35,191 nucleotides of DNA. Source: an uncultured Clostridia bacterium. Its GTDB lineage: Bacteria > Bacillota > Clostridia > Christensenellales > UBA3700. The position numbers and the translations under genes are program-made. Positions within the stretch are counted from its first letter, which is position 1. Every line of letters begins with the position of its first letter. The notes beneath the pieces were generated by a model. It saw only the letters and a program-made list of their open reading frames with translations. It was not told the DNA's origin and searched no databases. Location: positions 1 through 35,191 of the forward strand of contig CAMFVQ010000008.1 of NCBI GenBank assembly GCA_945992255.1, read 5' to 3'. Of this stretch, positions 6,376 through 22,896 are shown in pieces.

Positions 6376-6744
6376 TTAGAGTTTGGTCACCCACAAACCA
6401 TGCAAGTTGCAATAAGCATACACTGCGACTGGTCGGTCATCTACAAGCTTGAATTCCACTTGTGGATAAGCTCCGCATTTTTTGCGTTGTCCGCCCTTGG
6501 CTGTTTCGAGGTATACCCATTGAATAAAATGCTCTGGGGTCATTGGGTGAAGTTGGGCGCCAATCGAAACTTTGACAGTGCCGCCATCAATCTCCACTGA
6601 TGGAAGATGCTTTTCTGCGCCACTCTCTTCCCTAGAAGTAACAAGCTCAGTCATTGGTTGACCACAACATTGCATAGGAATGCCTGAGTTGCTCAGCATG
6701 CCTGCAAAATTGCCACATTTTTTGCACAAAAAATATTTTTTCAT
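6376..6744 (-). CDS. dfx: Desulfoferrodoxin / superoxide reductase (chromosomal copy)
   Basis: A 122-residue superoxide reductase, which reduces superoxide to peroxide without making oxygen and is typical of anaerobes. The ATG at 6744 follows GGGGGAT; the track start five codons earlier has no ribosome binding site. Residues 1-36 are a desulforedoxin-type domain (CKKCGN...CCGQPM). The rest is the SOR domain with the Fe ligands in EKHLP, HPMTPEH and CNLHGLW. The electron donor would be a rubredoxin. It is monocistronic behind a near-consensus promoter. A second, clearly different copy lies inside the island at 29860; this one is outside the island and probably native. Confidence 0.95.
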   Translation of the reverse strand: MKKYFLCKKCGNFAGMLSNSGIPMQCCGQPMTELVTSREESGAEKHLPSVEIDGGTVKVSIGAQLHPMTPEHFIQWVYLETAKGGQRKKCGAYPQVEFKLVDDRPVAVYAYCNLHGLWVTKL

Positions 6745-6773
6745 AAACCTATCCCCCATACGTTTATATTTTT

Positions 6774-7215: not shown

Positions 7216-7244
7216 TGTACAAAATCACCTTTTCGTTGTATAAT
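7216..7244 (+). promoter_or_regulatory. Promoter of the interrupted tRNA-Arg
   Basis: TGTACA (7216-7221) and TATAAT (7239-7244) with a 17-base spacer, ending 11 bases before the tRNA 5' half. It would still fire into the left end of the island. Confidence 0.6.
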
Positions 7245-7255: not shown

Positions 7256-7296
7256 GATTCCTTAGTTAAATGGATATAACAAGCCCCTCCTAAGGG
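7256..7296 (+). pseudogene. 5' half of tRNA-Arg(CCT): left island junction
   Basis: The sequence has a normal acceptor 5' strand (GATTCCT), D-arm (GTTA..TAAC), anticodon stem strand AGCCC and loop CTCCTAA with anticodon CCT, then GGG. After that it stops being a tRNA: the next bases cannot form the rest of the anticodon stem, variable loop or T-arm. The match to a standard tRNA-Arg(CCT) ends in the anticodon loop/stem. The AGCCC strand pairs perfectly with GGGCT in the tRNA 3' half at 30628. I read it as the left attachment site of an insertion in the anticodon loop. Confidence 0.75.
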
Positions 7297-7475
7297 TGCG
7301 CTATTCCTAAAATGAACCCGTAAAAACGGGGCAAAACTATGTGAAAACTGCCCAAAATCGTGCGTTTTGGCGATAAGGTAGACGGCTAAAATAAAATTTG
7401 GTGACCTATTTGGTTGCCACGATAGAAATTTTTGTAATAAGTGGGTATTGCTATATCCTGTAAAATTGAATATAA

Positions 7476-7550
7476 CTTTCCGTAGTTAAATGGATATAAC
7501 GGGTCCCTCCTAAGGATCAATTGTGAGTTCGATTCTCGCCGGGAAGACCA
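7476..7550 (+). tRNA. tRNA-Arg(CCT), complete, inside the island
   Basis: A full cloverleaf with encoded CCA. The acceptor CTTTCCG pairs with CGGGAAG; the D-arm is GTTA/TAAC; the anticodon stem is GGTCC/GGATC with loop CTCCTAA (anticodon CCT, reads AGG); the T-arm is GTGAG-TTCGATT-CTCGC; the discriminator is A. It differs from the split tRNA in acceptor, anticodon stem and T-arm, so it is not a simple duplicate. It sits about 180 bases inside the left junction and may replace the split tRNA. It is followed directly by a strong terminator. Its own promoter is not clear (a TAAAAT at 7461 is possible). Confidence 0.9.
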
Positions 7551-7579
7551 AAAAACGACCGATTTCTCGGTCGTTTTTG
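7551..7579. terminator. Terminator after tRNA-Arg, shared with the convergent gene
   Basis: A 12-bp perfect stem (AAAAACGACCGA / TCGGTCGTTTTT) with a TTTC loop. It works in both directions, for the tRNA and for the minus-strand gene ending at 7596. An almost identical hairpin lies at 8077, after thsA. Confidence 0.85.
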
Positions 7580-7595
7580 CATTGCAGTGCGTTCG

Positions 7596-7997
7596 TTATT
7601 CTTCCTTGAATTTGGTCAGCATACGCAGATGCGCTTGATTGTAGTATTTTCTAAAGGTTGCCCACGGTAGGCTCGTATCCTGTGAGAACGCGATTATCAC
7701 GCCTATCAGTTCACCTTTGTCTTTTGCCTCAATAATTGCCTTTTCATAGTCTTTGCTTTGTTGTGGCTTATCGAAGTGTTCGACAAGTTCTTTGACCCGT
7801 TGCTTGGCTTTGGGCGTTGTGGGTGTCTTATTCCAGCGACGGTCGTAGTTTGCCGTGCCGTCTATCCATAGTCTGCTTATCCTGCCGTCGTTGATGCCGT
7901 AGCCACTCGGTTCATCAAATACCTGTACATAGAATTTTATTCCGCCTATCGTTCCGAATTGCCAGTTTCCTTCCGTATGGGTGATTTTGATCTTCAT
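7596..7997 (-). CDS. Small conserved element protein (DUF7678-like)
   Basis: A 133-residue cytosolic protein with start ATG behind GGAGGTGTAAT. The pattern WQFGTIGGIKFYVQVFDEPS.YGINDGRISRLWI followed by YDRRW resembles a small family that I recall from mobile elements of Firmicutes (DUF7678); this name is from memory. The C-terminal half is helical and charged. It stands alone between two near-identical terminators. Its leader shares a motif (TTTACGGTAT) with the leader of the 156-residue gene at 21125, on the far side of the same element, so the two may be co-regulated. Function unknown. Confidence 0.65.
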   Translation of the reverse strand: MKIKITHTEGNWQFGTIGGIKFYVQVFDEPSGYGINDGRISRLWIDGTANYDRRWNKTPTTPKAKQRVKELVEHFDKPQQSKDYEKAIIEAKDKGELIGVIIAFSQDTSLPWATFRKYYNQAHLRMLTKFKEE

Positions 7998-8012
7998 ATT
8001 ACACCTCCGTAT

Positions 8013-8056
8013 CGTTAAACAAACGATACCGTAAACGGCAATTAAAGTCCAGCATA
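8013..8056 (-). repeat. Leader repeat, copy 1 (GCTGGACTTT...TTTACGG)
   Basis: Upstream of the DUF7678-like gene the minus strand reads GCTGGACTTT, then CCGTTTACGGTATCGTTTG. Related blocks precede the gene at 21125 (near 21617-21660) and int (near 18110-18140). See the finding on this shared leader. Confidence 0.45.
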
Positions 8057-8076
8057 ACGAGCCGAGAACAGCAAAG

Positions 8077-8103
8077 AAAAACGACCGATTTCTCGGCCGT
8101 TTT
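8077..8103. terminator. Terminator after thsA
   Basis: AAAACGaCCGA / TCGGcCGTTTT with a TTTC loop and one mismatch, directly after the thsA stop. It is nearly identical to the hairpin at 7551 and closes the ten-gene defence operon. Confidence 0.75.
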
Positions 8104-8107
8104 AGTG

Positions 8108-9553
8108 TTATTTTGACTCAGGTCTAAATGACAAAATATCGATTATACTTAATATAATATCTATTATTTCTTCTTTGGACAATTTAGGGGTATTAAGCTT
8201 TTCGAGTTTTTTCTTTATGTTTGGCATATTTCCGTTATACTTTTCAAAATCAGACAAAACTAATTCCGCTAGTTCTTTTGCTTTATAACCAGTAGTGCCA
8301 ACAGGGAAAACATATTTCTTTTTGTTAACAGCGATATCAAATTCTTTTTTTACGCCGTCAGCATTTATAATTTTTCCATTTTTATCTTTTTTATTACCGA
8401 ATAAGAAAAAGACTGCACCACATTGTTCAATCATTTTTTCACGATACGGAATATATATTTTTTCCATAAAGTCTGGCTTTTCATATAATGAATAGTACTT
8501 TTTAGGGAATGGGTATAACTTTAAATAATCAGCCATATCCAAATCATTTAAAGCTGTTGCCTCAGCTATTCCTTCATATAGACTAGGGCCAACACCGAAA
8601 CCATTTCCATTGATTACTTTTAAACCGTATCCTTGGTCTTTTTGTACTAAATTATAGCCGAGGTCATATATTAATTCTTTTGCCTCTTCTTCTGTACCAT
8701 ATTCTGAGTAGTCGTGTGCACTACCCGATATTAGTATTTTATATGACATATACTGCTTATATATTGCCTCCAATATTTCTTCTATTTCATTATATTCGTC
8801 AATTATAAGCGAGAATATACCATATTTTTCTATATCTTGCAAAAATAATAGTTGTTCTTTTTGTGCAGCTCGTTTAGTTGCTCTTTTAACAATGAAAAAA
8901 TGATTAGGTCCAATTGAGTTATTTTTTGCTTTTAACTTTTTAAGTATATTTTTAATGTCTGGATCGTTAAAACTATAACCAATGAATAGCATATTATTTA
9001 AAGCCAATTCATTTTCAAGCGCTGTATAAAAATTGGGATGAGTTGACTCATAACCGTCATAATCATCTTGCGTCAAAACGATATGTTCAGGGGCATCAAT
9101 GTCACCATGCACTTTAAAAACAAGTGTCTGACGTTCCGTTTCAATTTTAGCAAACTCACTATTAGAGTTCTTTTTTTCGAATTTCTTTTTTACAAATTTT
9201 AATGCATTTTCAATTATTGGATCATAATTAGTGGTCCAATAGTTTCGTATGGGCATTTTTGCCAATAATTTGTGCTTATACTGGAATTTATCCGTATGGA
9301 AGGCTTGTGACACTTCTTGCTTAAAAGCTGTCACTTCGGTTTTCGATTCATTGAGATAATATTGAGCTATCGTAGGATTATCTATAATAGTTCTTTTTGT
9401 TAATCCTAATTTTTTACGGAAGGGCTCAATTAATTTATTCCAGTCAAAATGTACTAAATCACAAGAAAATCCTGCGCCTACAAAAACAGAGGCCGTATTA
9501 CTCCTTAAAGCCTTCACGTATTCATTAATTAAAACTTGCTTTGATTCTATCAT
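8108..9553 (-). CDS. thsA: ThsA: SIR2-SLOG NADase effector of Thoeris
   Basis: Thoeris effector: once it binds the cyclic ADP-ribose-type signal made by ThsB, the SIR2 domain destroys NAD+ and stops the infected cell. It has 481 residues, close to the Bacillus ThsA length. The N-terminal SIR2 domain (about 10-260) shows GAGFS (26-30), TTNYDP with Asn109 and KVHGD with His149; in Bacillus cereus ThsA the catalytic residues are Asn112 and His152, so spacing agrees. From about 271 the sequence KILISGSAHDYSEYG opens the SLOG ligand-binding domain. Its ATG overlaps the thsB stop (TAATG), so the two are translationally coupled. It is the last gene of the operon and is followed by a terminator. The domain pairing plus the TIR partner make the call firm. 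Confidence 0.92.
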   Translation of the reverse strand: MIESKQVLINEYVKALRSNTASVFVGAGFSCDLVHFDWNKLIEPFRKKLGLTKRTIIDNPTIAQYYLNESKTEVTAFKQEVSQAFHTDKFQYKHKLLAKMPIRNYWTTNYDPIIENALKFVKKKFEKKNSNSEFAKIETERQTLVFKVHGDIDAPEHIVLTQDDYDGYESTHPNFYTALENELALNNMLFIGYSFNDPDIKNILKKLKAKNNSIGPNHFFIVKRATKRAAQKEQLLFLQDIEKYGIFSLIIDEYNEIEEILEAIYKQYMSYKILISGSAHDYSEYGTEEEAKELIYDLGYNLVQKDQGYGLKVINGNGFGVGPSLYEGIAEATALNDLDMADYLKLYPFPKKYYSLYEKPDFMEKIYIPYREKMIEQCGAVFFLFGNKKDKNGKIINADGVKKEFDIAVNKKKYVFPVGTTGYKAKELAELVLSDFEKYNGNMPNIKKKLEKLNTPKLSKEEIIDIILSIIDILSFRPESK

Positions 9554-10197
9554 TATGAATTTTTCCTTCGCAATGGTTCTGAATGATCATAGTTATTGCT
9601 TTTTCGTCTATTAAAAGCATTATCAATAAGTTCTTTGAGTTTATCTGTATCTTGGGAAATAACATCCCAATTTACGACCGATATTGCTACATCGCTTCTT
9701 TGCAAATTTGTAATTATTCTGTCGGGTAGATAAGGATATCGTTGTTTTAAAGAACTTTCTGTTTGAACCAATGGTGTCCATGTAGAATAGGGCCCCATTA
9801 TCGCTTTTTCACGTTCACTATTTGAAATCATACTTTGTTGTGAAGAAATAGACGGTAAATTGATTATTAAAATTCCCATTTTGGGGTTTACGTCGCTATC
9901 ATACATAGCAGCGTGTATTTCCCAATCGATAAATTTTCTTCTTTTGGTATTTTGACCACATAATAATATTAAAACGGTAGCGTCTTTAATGTAATTATCT
10001 CTAATCTCTCTTCGGATTTGCTCATCGGTCATGTATGTATCATCTATTTCGTCTTGATGAACGGAGCAATCCTCAAAAATGCTTTGAGTTCGCATGGTTG
10101 ACCAATCGAATTCTTTCATGTGAATTAAAACATCTTTATAGTCTTGGTCATCGTGGTGATAGTAACTTATAAATACTCTATGTCTGTCAATACTCAT
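9553..10197 (-). CDS. thsB: ThsB: TIR-domain sensor of Thoeris
   Basis: A 214-residue TIR protein that detects phage and makes a cyclic ADP-ribose isomer that switches on ThsA. The TIR fold starts at RHRVFISYYHHDDQDY (about 6-20); the likely catalytic glutamate is Glu93 in KFIDWEIHAAMY; the strand GILIINLP (about 107-114) follows. The start has a strong AAGGAGGATAAC site, 14 bases after the stop of the membrane-protein gene. It is coupled to thsA by a TAATG overlap. Only one TIR gene is present, although many Thoeris loci carry several. The last 60 residues (SVVNWDVISQDTDKLKELID) match the usual ThsB tail. Confidence 0.9.
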   Translation of the reverse strand: MSIDRHRVFISYYHHDDQDYKDVLIHMKEFDWSTMRTQSIFEDCSVHQDEIDDTYMTDEQIRREIRDNYIKDATVLILLCGQNTKRRKFIDWEIHAAMYDSDVNPKMGILIINLPSISSQQSMISNSEREKAIMGPYSTWTPLVQTESSLKQRYPYLPDRIITNLQRSDVAISVVNWDVISQDTDKLKELIDNAFNRRKSNNYDHSEPLRRKNS

Positions 10198-10211
10198 GTT
10201 ATCCTCCTTAG

Positions 10212-11414
10212 TTATTCTCCTTTTGTTTGTGATAAATAGTCTTTTTCCGAAATTTCCTTAAAACTCAATAAGTTTCTGTACAAGTTAAAATCTTGTTCTG
10301 TATTTTTTAAAAGGTCGGTATATAGCAATTCATAATAAAAAAGTCTTCCAAATATATCTTCAAGAGCCAAGAGAATAACTTTATCCTCATGAGCATTATC
10401 TGAATTTATTAAAATTTTGAAACGTTGATTTTTAAGCACTACATTATTTGTTGTAGGTATTAATAAGCCAAAGGACTGTGAGTAAACACTTTTAACGTAG
10501 AAACTTGAAGTATCTGAGTTTATAAATAAACTAATGTAACGTACATCATTTAGAGAAGAATAGTTTGGTATGTAAAATGGTATTGTTGGGTACACGCTAT
10601 TTAATGCTACATAAAAATCCGTCATTAAAGAAAACATCGGTTTTGCTTTGTTTAACTCGTCTTGGCGTTTCTTATTATTGGTGTCTTTAATAGTCCATGC
10701 GACTCCCACAAGGGTAAGCAATCCACCATAAACAGCAGAGATTACGGGAATTATAATATCTCGTAAACTGCAATTTGGAATAATATAAATCAAATATACG
10801 GTTAAGCCTATACCCAAAACAAAATCCGTCAGTAATAGCCATTTGTTAGTTTTGATATCTGACAAAAAGGAAACTGTTAAACCATAAAGCACAATTAGCA
10901 TTGCTAATCCACCAAAAATGAACTGTAATACGAGCCATTGATTAAAGCATGCCATATAGAACAAATCAAGTAGCCAATAAAACATAATATATTTGCCTAG
11001 ACATACGTTAGCGGCTTTTACTTGCTCAGTAGAATATGTATTTTTACTTTCTGCCCACGCTTTGACTGTAGCACATCCGATAGGGGCGCTTAACGCAATA
11101 ATCGTAAAAGCAAACCAATACCAATTGTAGGCTGTATCATAGTAGTTGATTATGAATATGCCACTTATAATAAAAAGCAATTGCAATATTCCACCTGAAG
11201 AAGAAATTTGAACAAATTTAGACTGCTCCTTCATTTTTTTGTTCGGTATAAAGGAATAAACTAAAAATATTGCAAGGGAAGGATACCATATACATTGTCC
11301 AATAGTTTTATTAATAGCATTATGTAAAAATGGCAACGCGATAAAGCCGCAGAAAGCAATTGCGACTAAAACATGCCATATTATATTAAAAATTTTCTTT
11401 AGTCTTTTTTTCAA
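10212..11414 (-). CDS. Multi-pass membrane protein in the Thoeris/RM operon, unknown
   Basis: A 400-residue protein with a TTG start 8 bases after AAAGGAG. About eight TM segments fill residues 8-240 (for example VLVAIAFCGFIALPFL, LLFIISGIFIINYY, VISAVYGGLLTLVGVAWTI). The last TM is followed by a charged linker (KDTNNKKRQDELNK) and a soluble domain of about 150 residues with beta-type sequence. The tail after the TM block resembles membrane-anchored proteins often found in defence islands, but I recognise no family. It lies 11 bases after vsr and 14 bases before thsB, so co-transcription is very likely. It could be a third Thoeris component, a separate abortive-infection effector, or a passenger. 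Confidence 0.85.
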   Translation of the reverse strand: MKKRLKKIFNIIWHVLVAIAFCGFIALPFLHNAINKTIGQCIWYPSLAIFLVYSFIPNKKMKEQSKFVQISSSGGILQLLFIISGIFIINYYDTAYNWYWFAFTIIALSAPIGCATVKAWAESKNTYSTEQVKAANVCLGKYIMFYWLLDLFYMACFNQWLVLQFIFGGLAMLIVLYGLTVSFLSDIKTNKWLLLTDFVLGIGLTVYLIYIIPNCSLRDIIIPVISAVYGGLLTLVGVAWTIKDTNNKKRQDELNKAKPMFSLMTDFYVALNSVYPTIPFYIPNYSSLNDVRYISLFINSDTSSFYVKSVYSQSFGLLIPTTNNVVLKNQRFKILINSDNAHEDKVILLALEDIFGRLFYYELLYTDLLKNTEQDFNLYRNLLSFKEISEKDYLSQTKGE

Positions 11415-11425
11415 TAGGTTCTCCT

Positions 11426-11836
11426 TTATTTAATTATAACACTAATTTTTTCTAATAATTTTTCTCTGTTTTTCTTTTTAAGCTCGCATTCCCAGATTCG
11501 AATAACTGTCCAATTCTTTTTTATAAGGGTTTCCGTTACGATTTGGTCGTGTTTGCGATTATAGTCGCGCTTTGCGTTCCAAAAGTCCGCGTTGGCGCTA
11601 GGGGTAACGTTACGGCAATCGTGACCGTGCCAAAAGCATCCGTCAACGAATACTACGACTCGCTTTTTAGGGAAAACGAAGTCTGGTTTTCCTACGAGGG
11701 GATAAGTTCGCCGCCACCCCTTAATATGGAGTTCTTTGAAAATATCTATCATCTTCAGCTCGGTGGTTTTTGTGTTTTTGCTTTTTATGGCGCGCATTAC
11801 CTCCGAGCGTTTGTTTGTTGAAAAGATATCACTCAT
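11426..11836 (-). CDS. vsr: Very short patch repair endonuclease (Vsr)
   Basis: A 136-residue endonuclease that nicks next to T:G mismatches formed when 5-methylcytosine deaminates; it protects cells that carry cytosine-5 methyltransferases. Signature segments are RSEVMRAIKSKNTKTE-like at the N-terminus (here KNTKTTELKM), the Asp of the active site in VGKPDFVFPKKRVVVFVDGCFWHGHDC, and the RIWECEL end. The start overlaps the upstream nuclease gene by 8 bases. The pairing with two C5 methyltransferases in the same operon fits the known biology. Confidence 0.93.
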   Translation of the reverse strand: MSDIFSTNKRSEVMRAIKSKNTKTTELKMIDIFKELHIKGWRRTYPLVGKPDFVFPKKRVVVFVDGCFWHGHDCRNVTPSANADFWNAKRDYNRKHDQIVTETLIKKNWTVIRIWECELKKKNREKLLEKISVIIK

Positions 11837-12632
11837 CGCTTTTTTCCACAGTAACAGCTAAGGAATCTAAATCAGGAATAGTGTCACCAAAACTATATTT
11901 GAATAAGTTGTCGGCGATGGCTACGGTTTCAACGTCTTCAAATTTTGCATTTGCCGTCCATTTGTCGTTAGGTAGCGAGGCTAAATTAGTTATGTTTATC
12001 ACTGCCAATTTACCATTAAACAAATCAAAATGCAAAACGTAGGTTTTCCAATTATGATTTGCTCTTACTTTTGCGTCTGTAGCTTTAGAACGCTTAATAT
12101 CGTTTTGTCCCGTAAAGCCTGCTTGAATTTCTATATGAATATTCTTTTTAACAATTTGTAAATCAGCAATAGCTTCTCTCTTAAAGGAATCAATATTACC
12201 GTCGCTAATTACTTTTTGCAAATTGTCTTCGCCTAACTGCTCAAGTTCATCGTCGTTTACGCCAAATACAAGAGAAATGGTTTTATGAAAATACAACGCA
12301 ACCATATATCCGCGCATCCAGTTATAATAAACTGCTTCACGTGCACGTCCATTATTATTAAACAGTTTTTCGATTATTTGAAAGCCTTTTAAGGTATTAT
12401 ACGCTTCGGTTGCTTGAGTTTTAAAATCATTAAACTCTTCATCTGTTAGTTTTAAATTAGGATGCATAGTTTTATTGATTTTTGAGAACATATCAATCAA
12501 ACGGGCATTTTCTTTTTCTATTAAATCCCAATTAATGCAGACTATATCCGTGGCTTTGAAGTATTTTTTTAAAATCACTTGATTGGTGAAGCCCAATGCT
12601 TTTCTATAATCCTTAGGTGTTTTGTATTCCAT
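11829..12632 (-). CDS. Putative type II restriction nuclease subunit
   Basis: A 267-residue protein. The track start at 12707 lies inside the previous gene; the ATG at 12632 (MEYKTPKDYRK) is 5 bases after that gene's stop and is preferred. A stretch around residues 165-195 (ADLQIVKKNIHIEIQAGF...DIKRSK) resembles a PD-(D/E)XK core with an ExQ variant; this is a visual judgement. The N-terminal half is helical. Its position between other RM genes and vsr supports a restriction role. With the preceding gene it could form the two different subunits of an asymmetric-site enzyme. Family not recognised. Confidence 0.6.
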   Translation of the reverse strand: MEYKTPKDYRKALGFTNQVILKKYFKATDIVCINWDLIEKENARLIDMFSKINKTMHPNLKLTDEEFNDFKTQATEAYNTLKGFQIIEKLFNNNGRAREAVYYNWMRGYMVALYFHKTISLVFGVNDDELEQLGEDNLQKVISDGNIDSFKREAIADLQIVKKNIHIEIQAGFTGQNDIKRSKATDAKVRANHNWKTYVLHFDLFNGKLAVINITNLASLPNDKWTANAKFEDVETVAIADNLFKYSFGDTIPDLDSLAVTVEKSDE

Positions 12633-12637
12633 ATGCG

Positions 12638-13483
12638 TTACTTGTTTCCTAATAAGAATCGAACTTTTACGTAATTGTGGTGGAACTGAAGTTGTTTCTG
12701 GTGCCATTGAACGAACCCGAAGGGTAATTGTATCGTAGTACCACCGTTGGAAGCTCCGTAGTAAACCTCATCCGACGATGCACGACTTGCCGCCTTGCTG
12801 ATTTCCGCAATGTCAAAAACGGCGTCAACGTCATTTTCGCCAAGCATGTTTTTATACCAAACGAAATCGGACCACTCGTCTTTATCTCGTACGGCTCCAG
12901 TTGCAAAACACAAATAAGTAAGTTCGTACACGTTGTCCTTAAACCATTGTAACAGGGCGTGATATAAGCTCTCATCGTAGCATCTTAAAGTATCTGCGTT
13001 AAGGCTTTTATGGCGAATTTGCATATCGTAGTCAAAAACCTTCGTTCTATCTGCATAGCGTTCAATTATCGATACGGCGTCAGGAGCCGCCGCCCAAAAT
13101 AAGAATATAGCCCTACACACGTTTTCAGGAATTCGCTTGTTAAATTGCGCCTCAAAAACATCAATAAAATTCTTAGCGCGAACGAAGTAGACTTGTCCGC
13201 CAAGACTTTTTTTGATAGAAACGTTTGCGAACGTTTCGTCGTCAAAATATAATTTTAAATCCGTTTTTGATTTCGTTTTCCGACCACAAACGCTGTCCAC
13301 GTTGTGTTCGTGTAAACCACCGATACTGGTTTCAACTAAATTTTTATCGTCAAGATTGATGCGTTGTAAAAATTCTCGTGTGTATTTTTCGTCGTTATCT
13401 AATAATTCTTTTACCAACTCTTCATTTTCGTGACCAGATAATTTTGCGTGTTTCCAACCTTCGGATCTATTTCTTCCGTACAT
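12638..13483 (-). CDS. Putative type II restriction endonuclease (PD-(D/E)XK-like)
   Basis: A 281-residue protein whose ATG at 13483 follows AAGGAGAATAAT and lies one base after the HNH-gene stop. Residues about 70-100 read KTDLKLYFDDETFANVSIKKSLGGQVYFV: an Asp, a beta strand, then SxKK, which looks like a PD-(D/E)XK nuclease core with Ser in the usual Glu place. The remainder is mixed and unrecognised, with tryptophan-rich patches (FLFWAAAP, EWSDFVWYK). Its operon neighbours are two cytosine methyltransferases upstream and a second putative nuclease downstream. Restriction activity is an inference from core and context. Confidence 0.6.
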   Translation of the reverse strand: MYGRNRSEGWKHAKLSGHENEELVKELLDNDEKYTREFLQRINLDDKNLVETSIGGLHEHNVDSVCGRKTKSKTDLKLYFDDETFANVSIKKSLGGQVYFVRAKNFIDVFEAQFNKRIPENVCRAIFLFWAAAPDAVSIIERYADRTKVFDYDMQIRHKSLNADTLRCYDESLYHALLQWFKDNVYELTYLCFATGAVRDKDEWSDFVWYKNMLGENDVDAVFDIAEISKAASRASSDEVYYGASNGGTTIQLPFGFVQWHQKQLQFHHNYVKVRFLLGNK

Positions 13484-13484
13484 A

Positions 13485-14198
13485 TTATTCTCCTTCCGTA
13501 CTTTCAAATTTTTTCTTAAGAATTTCGTAAATTTCTCGTTGTACTTGTACTGACGAATTTTTTACGACGTTAGGATTTGCTATTTTTATTACGCGTCCTT
13601 TTTTATCGTAAACCCAGTTGTTCAAATCTGGTTGATTACATTTTGAGCATTGAGGTATAACGTTTCCTTTTTGGAGGGGTTTAGAAGGGTCCATATGCCC
13701 TTTTTGAAGTTCCGTTATCGTGTTTGGCCAAAGTAAATGTTTTTCTCCTTCTTTTGAGCCACAGCACGCACACCTATAGCCGTAGCGGTTTTTTATGTTT
13801 TTCCATTCGTCTTCGGTTAAATCAGTCGTTCGTTTTTCGGCGTTAAAGCCTGGATACGGTTCTTCTAAGGTTTTTAACTTATATTCGCCAGTTTTTAATC
13901 CGCTGTCCGCGTCACCACGTTTGCCAGATAAAATATACCATCCTTTTTGCGCGGCTAAATGGCGGGCTTGCTGAACGTCGATACTACCCCCGTATCTTTT
14001 TAAGAATTTAGTTAATTCTGCTTTAGTTACTATCGCAGTTTCAGGATAACCTTTTGCAAGGCAAACGAGTACCAAGGCATCCTTAGTATAAGAACCGTCG
14101 CGCTTCAAATTCGGTAAGTGAACGCCGTGTGATTTTAAATATTTTTCGTGATACTCTTTTACCAGTTTATATATTTTTTCAATTTCATTTTTAGTCAT
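13485..14198 (-). CDS. HNH-family nuclease of the RM operon
   Basis: A 237-residue protein. The ATG at 14198 is preferred over the track start because GAGG lies six bases before it; it overlaps the methyltransferase stop. The N-terminal 90 residues are helical (possible DNA-binding). The C-terminal part (about 140-190) is a zinc-held HNH module: CACCGS, then KGHMDPSKPLQKGN, then IPQCSKCNQPDLNNWVYD. Such modules occur in HNH-type restriction enzymes and homing-type nucleases. Placed directly after a C5 methyltransferase, it is likely to be a restriction subunit. Which of the three nuclease-like genes matches which methyltransferase is not clear. Confidence 0.8.
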   Translation of the reverse strand: MTKNEIEKIYKLVKEYHEKYLKSHGVHLPNLKRDGSYTKDALVLVCLAKGYPETAIVTKAELTKFLKRYGGSIDVQQARHLAAQKGWYILSGKRGDADSGLKTGEYKLKTLEEPYPGFNAEKRTTDLTEDEWKNIKNRYGYRCACCGSKEGEKHLLWPNTITELQKGHMDPSKPLQKGNVIPQCSKCNQPDLNNWVYDKKGRVIKIANPNVVKNSSVQVQREIYEILKKKFESTEGE

Positions 14199-15150
14199 TA
14201 ACATCCTCGTACACGACTTTTTTAATATTTAGCGCTATTTCTTTTATAATAGGAACGCAAACGGAGTTCCCGATTTGTTTATATACTTGCTTTGGCGTTT
14301 TTTGTAATGGAAATTCAAAATCCTCGGGAAAACCTTGCAATCTAGCCGCCTCGCGTTGCGTAATTTTTCTAATCGAAAAATCATCCCAAAAGAAAGGAAT
14401 TCTTTCGTACGGGCTACCCATGGCTGCGAGCAACGTAGGACATATACCGTCGCGTCCTTTAGAAAGTCCCCAATCGGTAAAACGATAAATACGATGTCTA
14501 TCAGTCATAAACGCTACCATTTCATCCCACATTTTATGGTTGTCCATATAGTAAGAATCTGGTTGACGTTCTTTATCAAAGAAAGAAAAGGCGTCACGCT
14601 TTAATTCTCGTTCTTCGGGAAACTGAAATCTATCGCATAAATTCTCGTCTAAAAACGCTACGATATATATTCTATTTCGTTGCTGAGGAATGCCGTAATC
14701 ACTAGCGTTCATAACTTTATATCTAACGCTATATCCAAGCTCAGCCATCGTGTTAAAAATCGTTAGGAAAGTTCTTCCTTCGTCGTGTTTAACTAGATTT
14801 GCCACGTTTTCAAAAAATACGACGGACGGTTTTTTTGCCGCTATTACGCGAGCAGTTTCAAAAAACAAGTTTCCACGGGGATCTTCAAATCCTTTTTGTA
14901 AACCAACCGAAGAAAAGGCTTGACATGGGAAACCCGCTACGAGCACGTCGAAATCGGGAATCGTATCCGTTGAGACTTCTTGAATATCGCCTTCAACAAG
15001 AAAATCTTCTCCGAAGTTAAGTCTATAGGTTCTACAAGCGTATTTATCTATTTCGTTTGCCCAGACGATTTTGTATCCCGCTTGCTCAAAGCCAAGGTCG
15101 ATACCACCGATTCCTGCAAACATACTTGCTACTTTTAATTTCTTTCGCAT
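14191..15150 (-). CDS. DNA cytosine-5 methyltransferase 2
   Basis: A 319-residue SAM-dependent enzyme that methylates C5 of cytosine. Motif I is FAGIGGIDLGF (about 11-21), motif IV AGFPCQAFS with the catalytic Cys76, motif VI FFENV (about 110), motif VIII QQRNR, and motif X IGNSVCVPI near the end. The target-recognition region between VIII and IX is short, about 80 residues, which fits a simple type II enzyme. It is 57 bases after methyltransferase 1 and overlaps the HNH gene. Two C5 enzymes in one operon usually mean an asymmetric site with one enzyme per strand. Confidence 0.95.
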   Translation of the reverse strand: MRKKLKVASMFAGIGGIDLGFEQAGYKIVWANEIDKYACRTYRLNFGEDFLVEGDIQEVSTDTIPDFDVLVAGFPCQAFSSVGLQKGFEDPRGNLFFETARVIAAKKPSVVFFENVANLVKHDEGRTFLTIFNTMAELGYSVRYKVMNASDYGIPQQRNRIYIVAFLDENLCDRFQFPEERELKRDAFSFFDKERQPDSYYMDNHKMWDEMVAFMTDRHRIYRFTDWGLSKGRDGICPTLLAAMGSPYERIPFFWDDFSIRKITQREAARLQGFPEDFEFPLQKTPKQVYKQIGNSVCVPIIKEIALNIKKVVYEDVND

Positions 15151-15207
15151 ATTTCACCAAAACGAAAGAAGCCGCACGGTGGCAGCATTGCTTTCGCCTA
15201 AATTATT

Positions 15208-16272
15208 TTAGTCTAACACTTTTTCAATTTCTTTCGCTATGGCGATAGAGAGAAGCGGGGGTACTGCGTTGCCGATTTCCAAGTTCTTAGTAGACCTTGA
15301 ACCGTAGAATTTGTAATCGTCGGGGAAGCTTTGCAATCTAGCACCTTCTCTAGTCGTCATTGCTCTAGAATCCCTAGGGTGTACGCATCTAGACGAAGAC
15401 GGAGTTGCGAAGTTTCTCGTAACCGTAGGCGCGGGCTTTTTCCACCACATTTTCGCGTAAGTGTTGCCGTAACCGCTCTTAGGTCTAATTTCTTCGGGCA
15501 AATCGTCTTTACTGCCGCCGTCGGGTAACGCTTCCATTATGCGAATAAGGTGAGCCCCGTTGGTAGGTGCGATATTTTCAGTTAAACAATCGCTGTTCGT
15601 TCTAAGGTATTTTTGGAACTCGTTTTGGGGTTCGGTTGCATACTGAGTAGATTCTTGACCGCTCTTTAATGCAGGTAAGTCAGAGAAAGCGTCTTCTACG
15701 GTTACGTAGGGCAATAAGCCTTCGCCGTGGGTAGGCGTAGGATATTCGAAGGTGTTTTTACCTTTCATGCCTACGAGAATAACTCTATCTCTATATTGCG
15801 GAACACCGAAATCTACGGCGTTTAAGACTTTGCTTTTTACGTCGTAACCAAGTTCTCTAAATTTTTCCTTAATTACTTCGATGAGCGTACCGCCTTGCAT
15901 GCTGAGAAGCCCGGATACGTTTTCGAACACGAATGCTTTAGGTTGTACGATGGAAAGAACTCTGCAATATTCTTCGAATAAATGAGCTCTATCGTCCATT
16001 TGTCTTTTACCTAAGGTCGAATAGGATTGGCAAGGCGGACCACCAACTATAAGGTCAATTCCGTCGCCAACGTGCTTTTTCAATTCTTCTTCCGTTAAAT
16101 CTCTTATATCGCCTTGTATCATATCAACGGTAGGATGGTTCATTCTATACGCCGTTGCGATATCTTTGTCGTATTCGTTTGCCATAACGATTTGGAAGTT
16201 GTCGTTGTGAGCAAACCCATAACTTAAGCCGCCTACACCTGCAAATAAATCAATTACTTTATATTTTTTCAT
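15208..16272 (-). CDS. DNA cytosine-5 methyltransferase 1
   Basis: A 354-residue C5-methyltransferase. Motif I is DLFAGVGGLSYGF (8-20), motif IV GGPPCQSYS with catalytic Cys81, motif VI FENVSG (about 116), motif VIII QYRDRV, motif IX MTTREGARLQSFP, and motif X IGNAVPP. The target-recognition region between VIII and IX is longer than in methyltransferase 2, so the two probably recognise different strands or sites. It starts two bases after the controller gene's stop and is the second gene of the defence operon. Confidence 0.95.
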   Translation of the reverse strand: MKKYKVIDLFAGVGGLSYGFAHNDNFQIVMANEYDKDIATAYRMNHPTVDMIQGDIRDLTEEELKKHVGDGIDLIVGGPPCQSYSTLGKRQMDDRAHLFEEYCRVLSIVQPKAFVFENVSGLLSMQGGTLIEVIKEKFRELGYDVKSKVLNAVDFGVPQYRDRVILVGMKGKNTFEYPTPTHGEGLLPYVTVEDAFSDLPALKSGQESTQYATEPQNEFQKYLRTNSDCLTENIAPTNGAHLIRIMEALPDGGSKDDLPEEIRPKSGYGNTYAKMWWKKPAPTVTRNFATPSSSRCVHPRDSRAMTTREGARLQSFPDDYKFYGSRSTKNLEIGNAVPPLLSIAIAKEIEKVLD

Positions 16273-16274
16273 AA

Positions 16275-16493
16275 TTATTCCTTTTTGTCGTCCGTTTCGG
16301 TTAATTCCATTATTTCTTCTAAACTACAATTTAGCGCTTTGCATATTCGAACCAGGATATCCGTGTTAACGTTTTCGTTTTTGCCTAGCTTTGCGATAGA
16401 AGAAGAGCTAACGTTTGCGAGCTGTTGTAACTCGCCTTTTTTAATGTTTCTGTCAATTAATAGCTTCCATAGCTTTTTATAACTGATAGCCAC
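16275..16493 (-). CDS. Small XRE/Cro-type controller protein of the defence operon
   Basis: A 72-residue helix-turn-helix protein. The track start is 33 codons too early; the GTG at 16493 has GGAGG seven bases upstream. The fold is YKKLWKLLIDRNIKKGELQQLANVSSSSIAKLGKNENVNTDILVRICKAL in outline, a YozG-like Cro/C1 domain; the recognition helix is near SSSSIAKLG. It lies two bases ahead of methyltransferase 1 and directly behind a near-consensus promoter with a CGTACG palindrome in the spacer. By analogy with C proteins of RM systems, it probably controls its own operon. If so it would also control the Thoeris genes downstream. Confidence 0.85.
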   Translation of the reverse strand: MAISYKKLWKLLIDRNIKKGELQQLANVSSSSIAKLGKNENVNTDILVRICKALNCSLEEIMELTETDDKKE

Positions 16494-16521
16494 GATTTTA
16501 CCTCCAATTTTTATCTTTTTC

Positions 16522-16550
16522 ATTATACCACGTACGAATATTTTTTGCAA
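16522..16550 (-). promoter_or_regulatory. Promoter of the ten-gene defence operon, with a palindromic spacer
   Basis: TTGCAA (16550-16545) and TATAAT (16527-16522) on the minus strand, spacer 17 bases. The spacer contains CGTACG (16531-16536), a perfect palindrome in the place where a C-protein operator would sit. No other convincing promoter is seen between here and thsA, although short gaps (57 bases at 15151) could hide one. Confidence 0.75.
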
Positions 16551-16611
16551 GACTAAACCTTTGCTTTTTCGTAAGTTTTTTTGATATCTCATAAATTTTT
16601 ATTCGATTTCA

Positions 16612-16645
16612 ATAAAATAGGGCCGAGAACTCGTTTTTCTCGACC
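16612..16645 (-). terminator. Terminator after int
   Basis: On the minus strand GGTCGAGAA pairs with TTCTCGGCC, followed by CTATTTTATT. It separates int from the defence operon that starts just downstream on the same strand. Confidence 0.7.
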
Positions 16646-16654
16646 TTATCGTTT

Positions 16655-18049
16655 TCATTCGAATATCTCTTCCAATTTTTGGGCGGCGGAGCGGTCGGCG
16701 GTTTTTAGGAAGTGACTGTATATGTCGGTAGTGGTGCTGGTTCGCGCGTGACCAGCTCGACCTGCGACCGTTACGATAGGTACTCCTGCGGCGATTTGCA
16801 TAGTGATGTTCGTGTGCCTAAGGCTGTGAACGGTTCGTTCTTCAAGTCCTGCCGACTGGCAAATCTTCTTCATCCACATATTTATCGTGCCGGGGTATAT
16901 ATTTCCGCCGTATTCGCCTATGAACAGTCGGTTGCTGTTTTCCCATTTATCGCCGTGCATCGCCTTGTACTCCTCGTACCAAGCCTTGTATTCGGTCAGC
17001 ACCGATAGCAGTTTATCCGATATGGCAATCACGCGTTTGCTGCTTTCCGTTTTTGGTTCTTTCAGCACCAAGCCGACCCTTTGGACTGTCGTAAGCGACC
17101 TTGCAATCGTTATGGTAGCATTTTCAAAATCGATATCTGACCATTCCAGTCCGCACAGCTCGCCACGACGCATACCCGTTAGCAGAAGTGTGAGCATAGC
17201 GGTTTTATAGCGAATATCCGAATATTCGTCCGCTGCCTTATAAAACTTCTTGGCGTCTTCGTCATCCATATAATCTATCTCCCGCGGCGGTCGTTTCGGA
17301 AAGGATATGTAGTCGGCACTAGCGTAATTATCGGCTATTAGCCGCTGTTTTTTCGCCGTAGCAAGGATAGCCCGTATCGTTCGCTTGATTTTACTTATCG
17401 TTTCATAGGCGTATTTTTGCGTTGTATGCGTAATGTTGAATAGGGTTTCCGTTTTCACGCCTAACGTTTCGGCTAGCCGTTTTGCATACTTGTAACTGAT
17501 TTGTTTGCCTGCCAAGGCATTTGCAAGGGAGCAACTGCTGAAGTTCTTTTCGTATCGAAGTTTCATATAGCCGATACCCGTTTGGTTCATTCGTTCCCGT
17601 AAGGCAGGCTTTGCCGTGACTACCGTAACCGTTTTTTCCATACGGTCGAGTTTGTCGTAGTATTGCTGTATGATATTCGGCGTAAGTTCCTTTAGTTTGT
17701 ATCCACCGATATGTTTTTGGGTGAGCCAGATTGCATTTTCACAATTGACGAAATAGCTTGCGGACACTTCGTCTTTGCGCCGATTAAGCCACCAGAGCGC
17801 GTAGTCCGTGAAAGTGGTTTCGGGTGATTGCGTCGGCTCTCCTGACGCTGTTTCCGCCGCTTTGACAGCCGTTTCGTATTCGGCGGCGAAGAGCACGACT
17901 TCTCGTTCCATTTGTTTCGGCGTAAGTCCTACGGGCGGTTTCCAGGTTGTGGAGTGCACCTTGACTTCTCCGCTACCTTTGTCCTTGATTTTGACCTGTA
18001 TTCGGTAGGTCATACCGCTTTTACCCGGTCGTTTGCTTATGCTTGCCAT
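16655..18049 (-). CDS. int: Tyrosine recombinase (integrase) with an internal HTH-like insert
   Basis: A 464-residue integrase. The N-terminal arm-binding part (1-65) is of the AP2-like type (RPGKSGMTYRIQVKIKDKGSGEVK). The core-binding domain starts near 78. The catalytic domain has Arg in TGMRRGELCGLEW (about 294), HSLRHTN (His408, Arg411), GRAGHART and the nucleophile in TDIYSH (Tyr444). Unusually, residues about 160-206 (MKLRYEKNFSSCSLANALAG...LAETLGV) resemble an XRE-type helix-turn-helix placed inside the core-binding domain. It should catalyse insertion at the CTCCTAA core of tRNA-Arg. It sits in the middle of its element, not next to an attachment site, because the defence cargo lies on one side and the replication genes on the other. 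Confidence 0.93.
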   Translation of the reverse strand: MASISKRPGKSGMTYRIQVKIKDKGSGEVKVHSTTWKPPVGLTPKQMEREVVLFAAEYETAVKAAETASGEPTQSPETTFTDYALWWLNRRKDEVSASYFVNCENAIWLTQKHIGGYKLKELTPNIIQQYYDKLDRMEKTVTVVTAKPALRERMNQTGIGYMKLRYEKNFSSCSLANALAGKQISYKYAKRLAETLGVKTETLFNITHTTQKYAYETISKIKRTIRAILATAKKQRLIADNYASADYISFPKRPPREIDYMDDEDAKKFYKAADEYSDIRYKTAMLTLLLTGMRRGELCGLEWSDIDFENATITIARSLTTVQRVGLVLKEPKTESSKRVIAISDKLLSVLTEYKAWYEEYKAMHGDKWENSNRLFIGEYGGNIYPGTINMWMKKICQSAGLEERTVHSLRHTNITMQIAAGVPIVTVAGRAGHARTSTTTDIYSHFLKTADRSAAQKLEEIFE

Positions 18050-18109
18050 TGTATTTACCTCCTACGGTGTTTTGTTTAAGGGGATATAGCAATCCCCCTA
18101 ACAAAAGAA

Positions 18110-18140
18110 AGCCGTAATAATTTAGAAAAGTCCAGCGAAT
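18110..18140 (-). repeat. Leader repeat, copy 3, between xis and int
   Basis: On the minus strand TTCGCTGGACTTTT is followed by TTATTACGGCTTT, matching in outline the leaders at 8013 and 21617. It lies right after the xis stop and before int. Confidence 0.4.
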
Positions 18141-18334
18141 CAGCCTTGCGAACCGCTAAAATATTTGAATAAATCGTCTAAATCCACGAGAAGTTTCTTG
18201 CCCGTGAATACACATCGTATTTTACCGCTTTTACAAAGGGTTCTGATACAGTTAGGGGTTACCGCCGTCATAGGGTCGATTGCTTTTATTTCGGCAATCG
18301 TTTCGGATATCGTTCTCATTCGAGGTATAGTCAT
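18140..18334 (-). CDS. Excisionase-like small HTH protein
   Basis: A 64-residue protein starting behind AAGGAGATTTAG. The second half (TPNCIRTLCKSGKIRCVFTGKKLLVDLDDLFKYF) is the winged MerR/excisionase type of helix-turn-helix. Directly ahead of int on the same strand, it is most likely the directionality factor that bends the attachment sites for excision, as in Tn916-type elements. Confidence 0.8.
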   Translation of the reverse strand: MTIPRMRTISETIAEIKAIDPMTAVTPNCIRTLCKSGKIRCVFTGKKLLVDLDDLFKYFSGSQG

Positions 18335-18721
18335 CTAAATCTCCTTCGTTCTCATTATTTTTCTCCTTTGCTTTGAATCTTTGTTTCTTTGTATCTTCGT
18401 TGCGTCGTATCTTTGAATTCTTTGATTTTTTGAAATTTTTGATTTAATTTTGAAATGTAAAGCAGAAATCAAAACGATATATAATCGTGTTTTCTACGCT
18501 TTTTTTAGTCTTTAGGCGGTAAAAAAAACGCCGTTTTTACAGTTTTGAATATATAGAAATACCGATTTTTTGATTTTGCGTTTTGATTTTTGATTACGCG
18601 AAAATTCACGCGTGACTGCCGCCCCGCCCACGGGTAGAAGCTCGTAGAGATTTGACCTCCCCCTGGGGGGGGGTACGGCGAATTAAATCAAACAGTTATC
18701 GACCAGTAGGGTATCGTCAGC
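18335..18721. other. Gene-free stretch: candidate oriT/ori region
   Basis: About 390 bases without a gene, between xis and the replication cluster. One part is T-rich with repeated CTTTG and TTTTTGATTTT motifs (18360-18600). Then come an ACGCG-rich patch (GATTACGCGAAAATTCACGCGTGAC) in outline and a striking G/C hairpin (CTCCCCC-TGG-GGGGGGG near 18657-18674). GC-rich hairpins of this kind and AT-rich iterons are typical of transfer or replication origins. Which one, if either, cannot be shown here. Confidence 0.4.
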
Positions 18722-19075
18722 CTATTCCTCGTAGGCGCGTAGCCGTGCAAGGTCCTCCCGAATTCGTTTTTGTGCCTCGTCACTTAAAAGGGTAAACAGT
18801 CCGTAGGCATCAGCCTCAACGCTATCTGCATAAGAAAATCCCTCGATATCGGGCCAGCAATCGAATTGTTGTTTACAGTAATTGACCATACTGTACTCCT
18901 TTACGAGCGCAAGCACCTCGTCAATAGGCTTGTCCCTGCATTCGTGTAATTGCTTGTAAAATTCGCCGTCTTTTTCCTTAAGCCAGTCGTAAGGGTAATA
19001 GGCATAGGGTTTAAGTCGTTTTAAGTACGGGTATCGTTTGAGACCCTCTTTTACTAAAGTATCGTGTCGTTTCAT
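18722..19075 (-). CDS. Small protein downstream of dnaC-like gene, unknown
   Basis: A 117-residue, Tyr- and Lys-rich protein not recognised by me. It begins one base after the stop of the DnaC-like gene, with GGAGGGAAATGAT ahead of its ATG, so it is the last gene of the replication operon. The N-terminus is basic (KRYPYLKRLKPYAYYPYDW); the rest is acidic and helical (DEAQKRIREDLARLRAYEE at the end). It is likely to be an accessory factor of the element's replication, by position only. Confidence 0.65.
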   Translation of the reverse strand: MKRHDTLVKEGLKRYPYLKRLKPYAYYPYDWLKEKDGEFYKQLHECRDKPIDEVLALVKEYSMVNYCKQQFDCWPDIEGFSYADSVEADAYGLFTLLSDEAQKRIREDLARLRAYEE

Positions 19076-19076
19076 A

Positions 19077-19901
19077 TCATTTCCCTCCGTTAATAAATTT
19101 CATAAGATTATTTCTGTTTTGGCGCAGAATCAGGTCTCGCATATTTTCACAGTCCAACTGCTGTTCAAACAGGCAAGAACCCCGTATGCGGTGCGCCGTT
19201 CGTTCTTCGTAGTTGCAATTCGCCATTAAGTCGCTGATTCGGTAGTTGCTGGAATAGATGGTCGGCTTTTTGCCGTTGATACGGGTGTTGATAAGGTCGA
19301 AAATTATCGTTTGTAGCCAACCCGTACCTGCCTTGACGTTTTCCGTACCGATATCGTCCAGGAAGAGAAAGTCAACCGTTTCGGCTCTACGGAGCACGGC
19401 GGACTGCGCCGAGTTGTTCCCAAAGCCTTCTTTCAGTTTGCTTTCAATCTCCACGAAACTGGTAAACAGTACGGTGTAGAGTTTGTCCGCAAGTGCGTTG
19501 CCCATACAAGCGGTGAGGTGAGTTTTCCCTACGCCGGGGACACCGTATAGGTAAACGCCGACGCCTGCCTCATACATCTTATCTGCGTGCGCGCAATAGT
19601 TCCGACACATTTGGTAGACGGCTTTATTACTGGGTATAATTTTAGCCGTTTCAAAGGTGCAGTTCCTAAAATGCTTGCCGAGAGCGCTGTTACGGCGGTA
19701 TTCTTCCGCCTTGGCTTTCCGTTCTTGTAGTTTTCGCTCGTATTCGGCTTTCTCATAAGCCTCTTGACGGCACTTGCAGGAGGTGGGCGCAAAACAGTCG
19801 AATTCTTGCATATAAAACGCTCGTGGCGTGTGGCAGTTTTTGCAATACGGCAACCCGTCTTTCCCCAAGTATTCGTCTGCTTGTAATTCTATTTTTTTCA
19901 T
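19077..19901 (-). CDS. DnaC/IstB-type AAA+ helicase loader
   Basis: A 274-residue ATPase that should load the replicative helicase at the element's origin. The N-terminus has a zinc-type Cys cluster (C20, C23, C42, C44: YCKNC...SCKC). A charged helix precedes the AAA+ core, with Walker A GVPGVGKTH (120-128), Walker B FLFLDDIG (178-185), sensor 1 SSNY and an Arg-finger-type segment near TAHRIRG. Its start overlaps the upstream HTH replication gene by 4 bases (ATGA). This Rep plus DnaC pair is common on integrative elements that replicate after excision. Confidence 0.88.
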   Translation of the reverse strand: MKKIELQADEYLGKDGLPYCKNCHTPRAFYMQEFDCFAPTSCKCRQEAYEKAEYERKLQERKAKAEEYRRNSALGKHFRNCTFETAKIIPSNKAVYQMCRNYCAHADKMYEAGVGVYLYGVPGVGKTHLTACMGNALADKLYTVLFTSFVEIESKLKEGFGNNSAQSAVLRRAETVDFLFLDDIGTENVKAGTGWLQTIIFDLINTRINGKKPTIYSSNYRISDLMANCNYEERTAHRIRGSCLFEQQLDCENMRDLILRQNRNNLMKFINGGK

Positions 19902-20329
19902 GAATTATCTTTTCCCCAGTCAATACCATAATTGCTTTCGTAAGAAATATTATTTTTATCTATTCTACTTACTATATTATGGTTCGCATATTTAAGCGTA
20001 GGCTTTTCGCGTTTTTGAGCGTTACCTACGCTTATTTTTGATAACACTATGGAAGAATTCGGTTTGATAATACGCTTACGATAACCGTTGTCATCCGTGG
20101 CACGGGTAACGGTGATTAGGTCGTAACGCTTAAGTATCCCGATCAACCTACTTACCGATTGAATGGAAAGGTTTAATTGTTTTGCAAAATATTTATTCGA
20201 TGCAAAACAGTACCCATCACTCTGCGATAGGGCACAAATCTCTCCATGAAGAATTTTCGCTCTCGGTGGAATAGAGGGGATTGCGTTCACTTTTTCGTCC
20301 AGTTTAATGTAATTTCTACTACTCGTCAT
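19898..20329 (-). CDS. Replication-initiator-like winged-helix protein
   Basis: A 143-residue protein. Residues about 22-80 (SIPPRAKILHGEICALSQSDGYCFASNKYFAKQLNLSIQSVSRLIG...L) form the winged-helix domain found at the N-terminus of phage and plasmid replication proteins (RepA_N / replisome organiser type). The C-terminus is basic and disordered. It is translationally coupled to the DnaC-like gene. It probably binds the element's origin. The full-length family is often longer, so this may be a short variant. Confidence 0.75.
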   Translation of the reverse strand: MTSSRNYIKLDEKVNAIPSIPPRAKILHGEICALSQSDGYCFASNKYFAKQLNLSIQSVSRLIGILKRYDLITVTRATDDNGYRKRIIKPNSSIVLSKISVGNAQKREKPTLKYANHNIVSRIDKNNISYESNYGIDWGKDNS

Positions 20330-20365
20330 TTACTTCCTCCTGAATATAGTATTGTAAGCAATTTT

Positions 20366-20377
20366 GCGAACACATAG
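20366..20377 (+). promoter_or_regulatory. Single XRE-type half-site ahead of the replication operon
   Basis: GCGAACACATAG lies about 37 bases ahead of the initiator-like gene start. It matches the half-sites of the operator at 20922-20951 next to the XRE regulator gene, so the regulator may also repress replication. Confidence 0.4.
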
Positions 20378-20386
20378 TTGAAAATT

Positions 20387-20412
20387 AAAAAGGATCGGCG
20401 GTCCTTTTTAAG
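20387..20412. terminator. Terminator after the XRE regulator
   Basis: An AAAAAGGA / TCCTTTTT stem with a 7-base loop. It has T-runs on both strands and lies just after the regulator stop at 20426. Confidence 0.75.
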
Positions 20413-20425
20413 TTAAAATATATGA

Positions 20426-20908
20426 TCAGTCTTCTACTTCATCGGTAGACGATAATTTCGTTCCCTTTGACAGCAATTCTTCTATGGCGGTTATAACGGC
20501 AAGGCTTTCGTCTTCATGATCTATCACGAGTGCGTCTAAATCATTGACCTGCATCAACTTGCGTACGACAAGCCTTGCAAACTGATTTTTGCGTAAGAAT
20601 TCAGTCATATCGGGGGCAAGCTCCTTTCTGCCAAGACCGATAAGCTCCATTACCTCGTATTCAGTCTCCTCATTCACCTGATAGGTTTTAAGAATATTTG
20701 TGAGCACTTCTCCCACGGGAGGATATCGCCTATCGTTTTCCAGGTCGGAAAGGTATGCCGGGGAAATTCCGATTTTGGCACATGCGCCACGGAGAGAGAG
20801 GTTGCAGCCTTCTCGTAAACCTTTTATCATTTTGCCAAAGGTAACGCCTTTTGCGTTTGCAATTACCGTTCCGTCTTCTCTTCTGGGCATAGCCTTGTAT
20901 TTTGCCAT
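20426..20908 (-). CDS. XRE-family regulator of the element
   Basis: A 160-residue repressor-type protein. The ATG at 20908 follows AAGGAGTACGTT; the track start is 13 codons earlier without a ribosome site. Residues about 20-75 (GKMIKGLREGCNLSLRGACAKIGISPAYLSDLENDRRYPP) form a clear lambda-Cro/C1 helix-turn-helix. The rest is an acidic oligomerisation-type tail. There is no metallopeptidase partner of the ImmA kind next to it. A paired operator lies in its own leader, so it probably represses itself and the replication genes. Confidence 0.88.
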   Translation of the reverse strand: MAKYKAMPRREDGTVIANAKGVTFGKMIKGLREGCNLSLRGACAKIGISPAYLSDLENDRRYPPVGEVLTNILKTYQVNEETEYEVMELIGLGRKELAPDMTEFLRKNQFARLVVRKLMQVNDLDALVIDHEDESLAVITAIEELLSKGTKLSSTDEVED

Positions 20909-20921
20909 AACGTACTCCTTA

Positions 20922-20951
20922 CTATATGTTCGCTTTTTTGCTAACACATAT
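20922..20951. promoter_or_regulatory. Inverted-repeat operator in the XRE gene leader
   Basis: CTATATGTTCGC, a 6-T spacer, then GCTAACACATAT: two near-symmetric half-sites facing each other. They lie just downstream of the -10 box, where a bound repressor would block the promoter. Confidence 0.55.
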
Positions 20952-20979
20952 ATTATACACCATATTTTCTATTTGTCAA
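20952..20979 (-). promoter_or_regulatory. Promoter of the XRE regulator
   Basis: Consensus TTGACA (20979-20974) and TATAAT (20957-20952) on the minus strand, spacer 16 bases. Confidence 0.8.
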
Positions 20980-21124
20980 TCGACTACTGTCATGTTTTTT
21001 TGCTTTTTTAAAATATTTTTATTAAAATTACTAAATGCCCTATAGATAGGGCAGAATTTGCTGTTATCGCTAAAACACTATTGTATTTTGTACGCAAAAT
21101 TATTTATTTTTGCCGATAGCGTAA

Positions 21125-21595: not shown

Positions 21596-21616
21596 TTTTG
21601 CCTCCATATATTATTG

Positions 21617-21660: not shown

Positions 21661-21675
21661 CATGGATTAATATAA

Positions 21676-21703: not shown

Positions 21704-21711
21704 TTAATTAT

Positions 21712-22892: not shown

Positions 22893-22896
22893 TTTT

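Follow-up and report, generated by a model that had tools for sequence, protein, structure and literature searches.

A probable replacement tRNA-Arg(CCT) gene carried by an integrative element in Clostridia, and arrays of split tRNA-Arg(CCT) genes in related genomes

Regeneration of the target is the usual rule for tRNA-targeting integrases: classical islands have a tyrosine integrase, a tRNA target and a tRNA fragment at one end, and they restore the target with a matching fragment; Islander mapping relies on this match between fragment and restored tRNA and discards any span shorter than 2 kb (PMC4383910). A different arrangement, tRNA-dependent lysogeny, has been described for Fionnbharth and other actinobacteriophages, in which a temperate phage cuts a host tRNA gene and supplies an entire tRNA of matching isotype (Guerrero-Bustamante and Hatfull 2024; PMC10865867). 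The authors of that study asked how common it is elsewhere, and the use of a first plasmid's tRNA as attB by a second plasmid was mentioned as speculation only. Phage-related sequences of Sinorhizobium meliloti also replace the tRNA they inactivate (PMC11476347), and the Lactobacillus johnsonii prophage Lj965 brings an isoacceptor for the tRNA it inactivates (cited in PMC10865867). The element described here likewise supplies an isoacceptor of an inactivated tRNA; the S. meliloti sequences and Lj965 differ from it in being prophage-related and, in the parts of these accounts available to us, in having no reported relay of replaced replacements.

The window analyzed here is one whole contig of 35,191 bp from a 1.48-Mb, 98%-complete genome. 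Its native tRNA-Arg(CCT) gene is present as two halves. The 5' half (7256–7296, + strand), cut in the anticodon loop at attL, is 98% identical to the unsplit native tRNA of relatives G004 and G009 and begins 220 bp upstream of an intact tRNA-Arg(CCT) that we call tRNA A. The 3' half at attR (30628–30671, +) is 98–100% identical to the native tRNA of G004, G009, G011 and G020. Sequence comparison identified a 10-bp core, CTCCTAAGGG, in both halves, with the left copy at 7287–7296 (+) and the second, which opens the 3' half, at 30628–30637; the core consists of the anticodon loop and three stem bases. When joined in silico, the halves gave a tRNA of 75 nt that matches the unsplit tRNA of G004 at all but two positions (73 of 75), with one broken pair (A–G at 2–70) resulting from a C2-to-A change in the 5' half. 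Such a broken acceptor pair is expected for a gene no longer under selection. No functional tRNA is rebuilt at either junction: ARAGORN calls tRNA A alone in the window.

tRNA A occupies 7476–7550 (+), about 180 bp inside the island edge, and is the sole tRNA called by ARAGORN and Rfam, which agree; its Rfam score of 55.7 bits exceeds the gathering score of 29. Its stems have standard pairs throughout, and CCA is encoded in the gene. It shares its D-arm sequence with the split native tRNA, and is identical to the unsplit native tRNA of G004 at 59 of 75 positions, with different acceptor, anticodon-stem and T-stem sequences. Immediately 3' lies a terminator-like hairpin with a T-run (7552–7577, +), of which a related copy is found at 8077–8103. 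The original prediction of a complete cloverleaf with the same CCT anticodon, different stems and its own terminator was therefore confirmed, though the hairpin is absent from the output of a simple terminator scan. The leader of tRNA A (7297–7475, +), conserved in G006, a relative from another genus, forms the left end of an integrative element, E1. It contains TGcTATATc at 7449–7457, in a block conserved in G006, as a possible extended -10; a consensus promoter scan detected no promoter belonging to tRNA A itself. The promoter scan did find a promoter-like site, TGTACA-17-TATAAT (7216–7244, +), upstream of the native 5' half, which could still drive transcription into the island, although this function is inferred.

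To count the tRNA-Arg(CCT) genes, as the original prediction had proposed, we gathered the tRNAs of the genome by Rfam search and ARAGORN. Above the Rfam cut-off, 38 tRNAs were present; the tRNA-Arg genes were TCT, ACG, CCG and CCT, the last represented by tRNA A alone, which is the only intact CCT gene found in this 98%-complete genome. The need for a CCT tRNA is unproven, since the genome also has tRNA-Arg(TCT), which might decode AGG through wobble pairing. We consider it very likely that tRNA A is the replacement gene of E1 for the tRNA cut by integration.

Were the classical rule to apply, E1 would have donated one half, the intact tRNA would be a host/element hybrid, and the fragment would have been displaced. 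Consistent with that rule, a duplicate 3' half lies far from the intact tRNA in G043 and G006, and in some relatives the cut falls in the T-loop and a near-identical intact copy is present. However, the window does not show the restoring attP of classical islands: only 10 bp are shared, fragment and intact tRNA are mismatched, and the native 3' half, displaced to 30628 but intact there, is different in sequence from that of tRNA A, whose own two halves pair perfectly together. A separate native 3' half is also present in G001, G022, G060, G095 and Chakrabartyella. We therefore regard regeneration at this locus as highly improbable.

E1 extends from about 7297 to 22845. Beside tRNA A are a DUF7678 protein (7596–7997, − strand) and a Thoeris-type defence pair, ThsA (SIR2-STALD) and ThsB (TIR) (8108–10197, −). 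These are followed by a restriction-modification-like block of a Vsr endonuclease, two C5-cytosine methyltransferases and unassigned genes (11426–16272, −), by a tyrosine integrase (Phage_integrase, PF00589, E 1.1e-26; 16655–18049, −), and by a DnaC-like helicase loader, an HTH_36/DnaD-like initiator, an HTH regulator and unassigned genes (18722–22596, −). Four ORFs within 10212–14204, by the Vsr and the two cytosine methyltransferases, had no Pfam, PADLOC or NCBIfam match as tested and are candidate restriction or defence genes, their function being inferred. The integrase keeps the conserved catalytic residues R294, H408, R411, H434 and Y444 (alignment A1). Eight integrases, when aligned, proved too divergent to yield a usable search profile. 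The right end of E1 (22682–22853, +) terminates in the core CTCCTAAG and shares 90% identity with the corresponding end of a cassette in G006. Within it (22820–22853), TTAGGAG, the inverse complement of the core CTCCTAA, stands 10 bp before the core, as it does in G006. The right end closes with GCAATATCCTCCTAAG and the left end opens with GGTGCGCTATTCC, and the junction of the two is the predicted attP of a circular form.

No phage structural genes were recognized among the E1 proteins scanned against Pfam, PHROGs and NCBIfam, and no relaxase or conjugation genes were recognized in E1, but several of its proteins have no family assignment. The viral contigs scanned gave no match to the array pattern described below, to two element left ends or to the E1 integrase, and no circular form or attP was seen when they were scanned for element ends. 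In phage records, the E1 integrase has distant relatives only, below 60% identity.

The original prediction had also asked whether the tRNA travels with the element in other hosts, and this was observed in G006, which has the left end of E1 with its leader and tRNA (269 bp, 84%) as well as the right end (173 bp, 90%). Between these ends lies different cargo (DUF4238 and NERD), forming a 2.4-kb cassette without an integrase. Five stem pairs are changed between tRNA A and the G006 copy; four of the five are changed on both sides and still paired, and the fifth, a T-stem pair, is broken in the G006 copy. The cassette is located at a non-tRNA CTCCTAAG site adjoining an intact CCT tRNA, so that its own tRNA would be redundant there and the link between target and cargo is not absolute. 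A reading of G006 as a third element that rebuilds the native tRNA by means of a 409-aa integrase was rejected, because the protein is an AAA/DUF4143 ATPase and the cassette lies at that non-tRNA site.

tRNA genes often cluster, and the D-arm sequence is common to both copies in the window, as would be expected if tRNA A had arisen by an old duplication, or were simply another tRNA-Arg(CCT) of the host, and had stood beside the target before integration. Yet the unsplit native loci of G004, G009, G011 and G020 have one CCT tRNA each, with no second copy; the 180-bp leader and element end of tRNA A are common to G006; and two intact copies occur in only 2 of the 110 arrays described below. There is thus very little room for a pre-existing duplicate. 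The same tRNA at the same place in a genome without the element would have refuted the original prediction; it was not seen in the unsplit relatives, though the window flanks are not syntenic with theirs, with no orthologous genes found, and hence no strictly allelic empty site was available. The predicted role of tRNA A as a replacement is supported by its being the only intact CCT gene found, by the conserved element end shared with G006 and by the four unsplit relatives without a second copy.

The island consists of two nested elements. An additional 3' half-tRNA at 22846–22892 (+), overlooked in the original prediction, reads from CTCCTAAGGCGGG to CAGGCAGGCCA and is the 3' half of a tRNA-Arg(CCT) of a 77-nt type, which we call tRNA B. 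An intact counterpart is found in G001, of the same genus, 203 bp from a split native 5' half, and the DNA from 22881 onward is 90% identical to that downstream of the G001 replacement tRNA. The remnant of an older element, E2, follows (22893–30627, +); over 27525–30449 it shares 95% identity with the right part of the G001 element, and no integrase was detected in the remnant. Oxidative-stress cargo is present in E2 at 24026–30240 (thioredoxin-like, rhodanese, rubredoxin, rubrerythrin and desulfoferrodoxin genes), and the window has another desulfoferrodoxin gene beyond the island, at 6376–6759. The simplest reading of the junctions is the order native, then B, then A: E2 would have replaced the native tRNA with tRNA B, and E1 would then have cut tRNA B and now supply tRNA A. 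The 5' half of tRNA B and the left end of E2 were probably lost via recombination between two cores, a loss that we infer. The alternative offered in the original prediction, that the intact tRNA had been an earlier integration target, does not hold for tRNA A; it does hold for tRNA B, a former replacement that was later targeted.

We then examined how widely this arrangement recurs, and found it in many gut Clostridia. For the order, 396 genomes were searched with a 5'-half pattern, supplemented by targeted reading, and in about 35 of them, from many families, a split 5' half was followed within 70–290 bp by another tRNA-Arg(CCT). When a two-copy pattern was applied in one spacing range, CCT matched in 15 of 396 genomes, whereas the isoacceptor TCT matched in none (0 of 396); the single-copy TCT pattern does match the genome of the window. 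In a species-wide collection with one genome per species, the CCT pattern matched 111 contigs, mostly from Clostridia, including Lachnospiraceae, Oscillospiraceae and Christensenellaceae. Among 110 non-identical arrays, 96 had between one and four split halves ahead of a single intact tRNA in the innermost position. The remaining arrays mostly run up to the end of a contig, and only two look like simple pairs of intact genes; the innermost-intact rule is broken in three arrays (L280, L323 and G008). Because anticodon and strand are both set in the census pattern, it is blind to replacements of other kinds and favours CCT. At loci with enough sequence, a tyrosine integrase often lies downstream of the intact tRNA on the opposite strand. 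The genome of Chakrabartyella piscis has two split copies, then an intact one adjoined by an integrase, and its native 3' half lies at a distance of 30.8 kb; because this genome is finished, an assembly artefact is excluded for its array.

In four arrays (L147 of G039, at 11541–12100, and L332, L298 and L303), the replacement tRNA is itself cut. The element that cut the G039 replacement has the same left end, CGGCAGCCACATCC, indicating that related elements integrate serially. A second class of array (L208, L212, L214, L235, L236, L296 and L322) has a fragment that ends in the T-loop (GGTTCG) and a near-identical intact copy; these relatives may follow the classical rule. In L148 (G043:C5, 73–1797), an intact tRNA-Arg(CCT) is separated by 1.6 kb from a 3' half identical to its own, which we take as a very short element or a remnant of the classical, tRNA-restoring kind.

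That tRNA A serves the element itself, through codon supply or resistance to a tRNA-cutting defence as proposed for phage-borne tRNAs (PMC10865867), and matches the cut tRNA by chance, is very unlikely: AGG is present in E1 genes (12 in 3101 codons), but its use is equal in flanking host genes (13 in 2833 codons), and in 96 of the 110 arrays the element-side tRNA has the anticodon of the split one and is the sole intact copy there, with the caveat that the search pattern favours this anticodon.

The element left ends also contain a candidate recognition motif. TATCC was found exactly at offset 17 from the start of CTCCTAA in 20 of 102 distinct left ends and in 0 of 82 intact tRNA 3' parts; the left ends are partly related by descent. 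TATCC and the GGATA of the tRNA D-arm together make an inverted repeat that has the 7-base anticodon loop at its centre; this arrangement suggests half-sites for core binding on either side of a 7-bp overlap, with binding inferred from sequence alone.

Under replacement by E1, the mechanism would run as follows. The E1 integrase, whose action at this site is inferred, would recombine a short core within the tRNA-Arg(CCT) anticodon loop. Since attP has only about 10 bp in common with the target, the tRNA stays cut after integration, as the sequence demonstrates. The element would compensate with the complete same-anticodon tRNA observed about 180 bp from the crossover point. tRNA A would then be transcribed and charged and would maintain AGG decoding, all of which is inferred in the absence of expression or charging data. 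Since the replacement has the same anticodon loop, it offers a new attachment site.

E1 is thus like tRNA-dependent lysogeny in its tyrosine-family integrase with catalytic residues kept (PF00589), in an attB that lies within a host tRNA gene and has a roughly 10-bp common core (CTCCTAAGGG), in a cut tRNA rebuilt at neither junction, and in carrying a complete tRNA of the same isotype, here tRNA-Arg(CCT) at 7476–7550. Judged by gene content and viral collections, however, E1 has no recognized phage structural genes and the temperate-phage feature is not met; we therefore file it as working like tRNA-dependent lysogeny, not as a member. Unlike the actinobacteriophage system, E1 has a clostridial host, targets tRNA-Arg(CCT) and carries its replacement next to attL, and replacements in Clostridia are themselves cut by later elements. 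In this last respect, the arrays look like natural cases of the speculated integration of a second plasmid into the tRNA of a first. Use by apparently non-phage elements across Clostridia, and a natural relay in which a replacement becomes the next attachment site, appear to be new; we found no paper describing these arrays, in the open-access literature only. Because the split halves are 70–290 bp apart, below the 2-kb limit, and the fragment mismatches the intact tRNA, Islander-type finders probably miss such islands, and these two rules may be why the arrays were overlooked.

Taken together, these findings make it likely, though less firmly than the role of tRNA A itself, that a large and mixed, Clostridia-wide class of integrative elements cuts the anticodon loop of tRNA-Arg(CCT) and brings both a replacement and the attachment site for the next element, so that the host's AGG tRNA is handed between elements and the rows of split 5' halves form an ordered record of occupation; at least part of the class would recognize the D-arm GGATA, with the mirror TATCC carried at exactly the symmetric distance about the 7-base anticodon loop. 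The results indicate that tRNA-dependent integration is common in Clostridia among apparently non-phage elements and runs in series, with a core translation gene repeatedly swapped for a foreign one. This would account for part of the turnover of defence islands and cargo at the locus. It is plausible, by inference, that the islands are costly or hard to lose, and the arrays could act as ordered records of element turnover.
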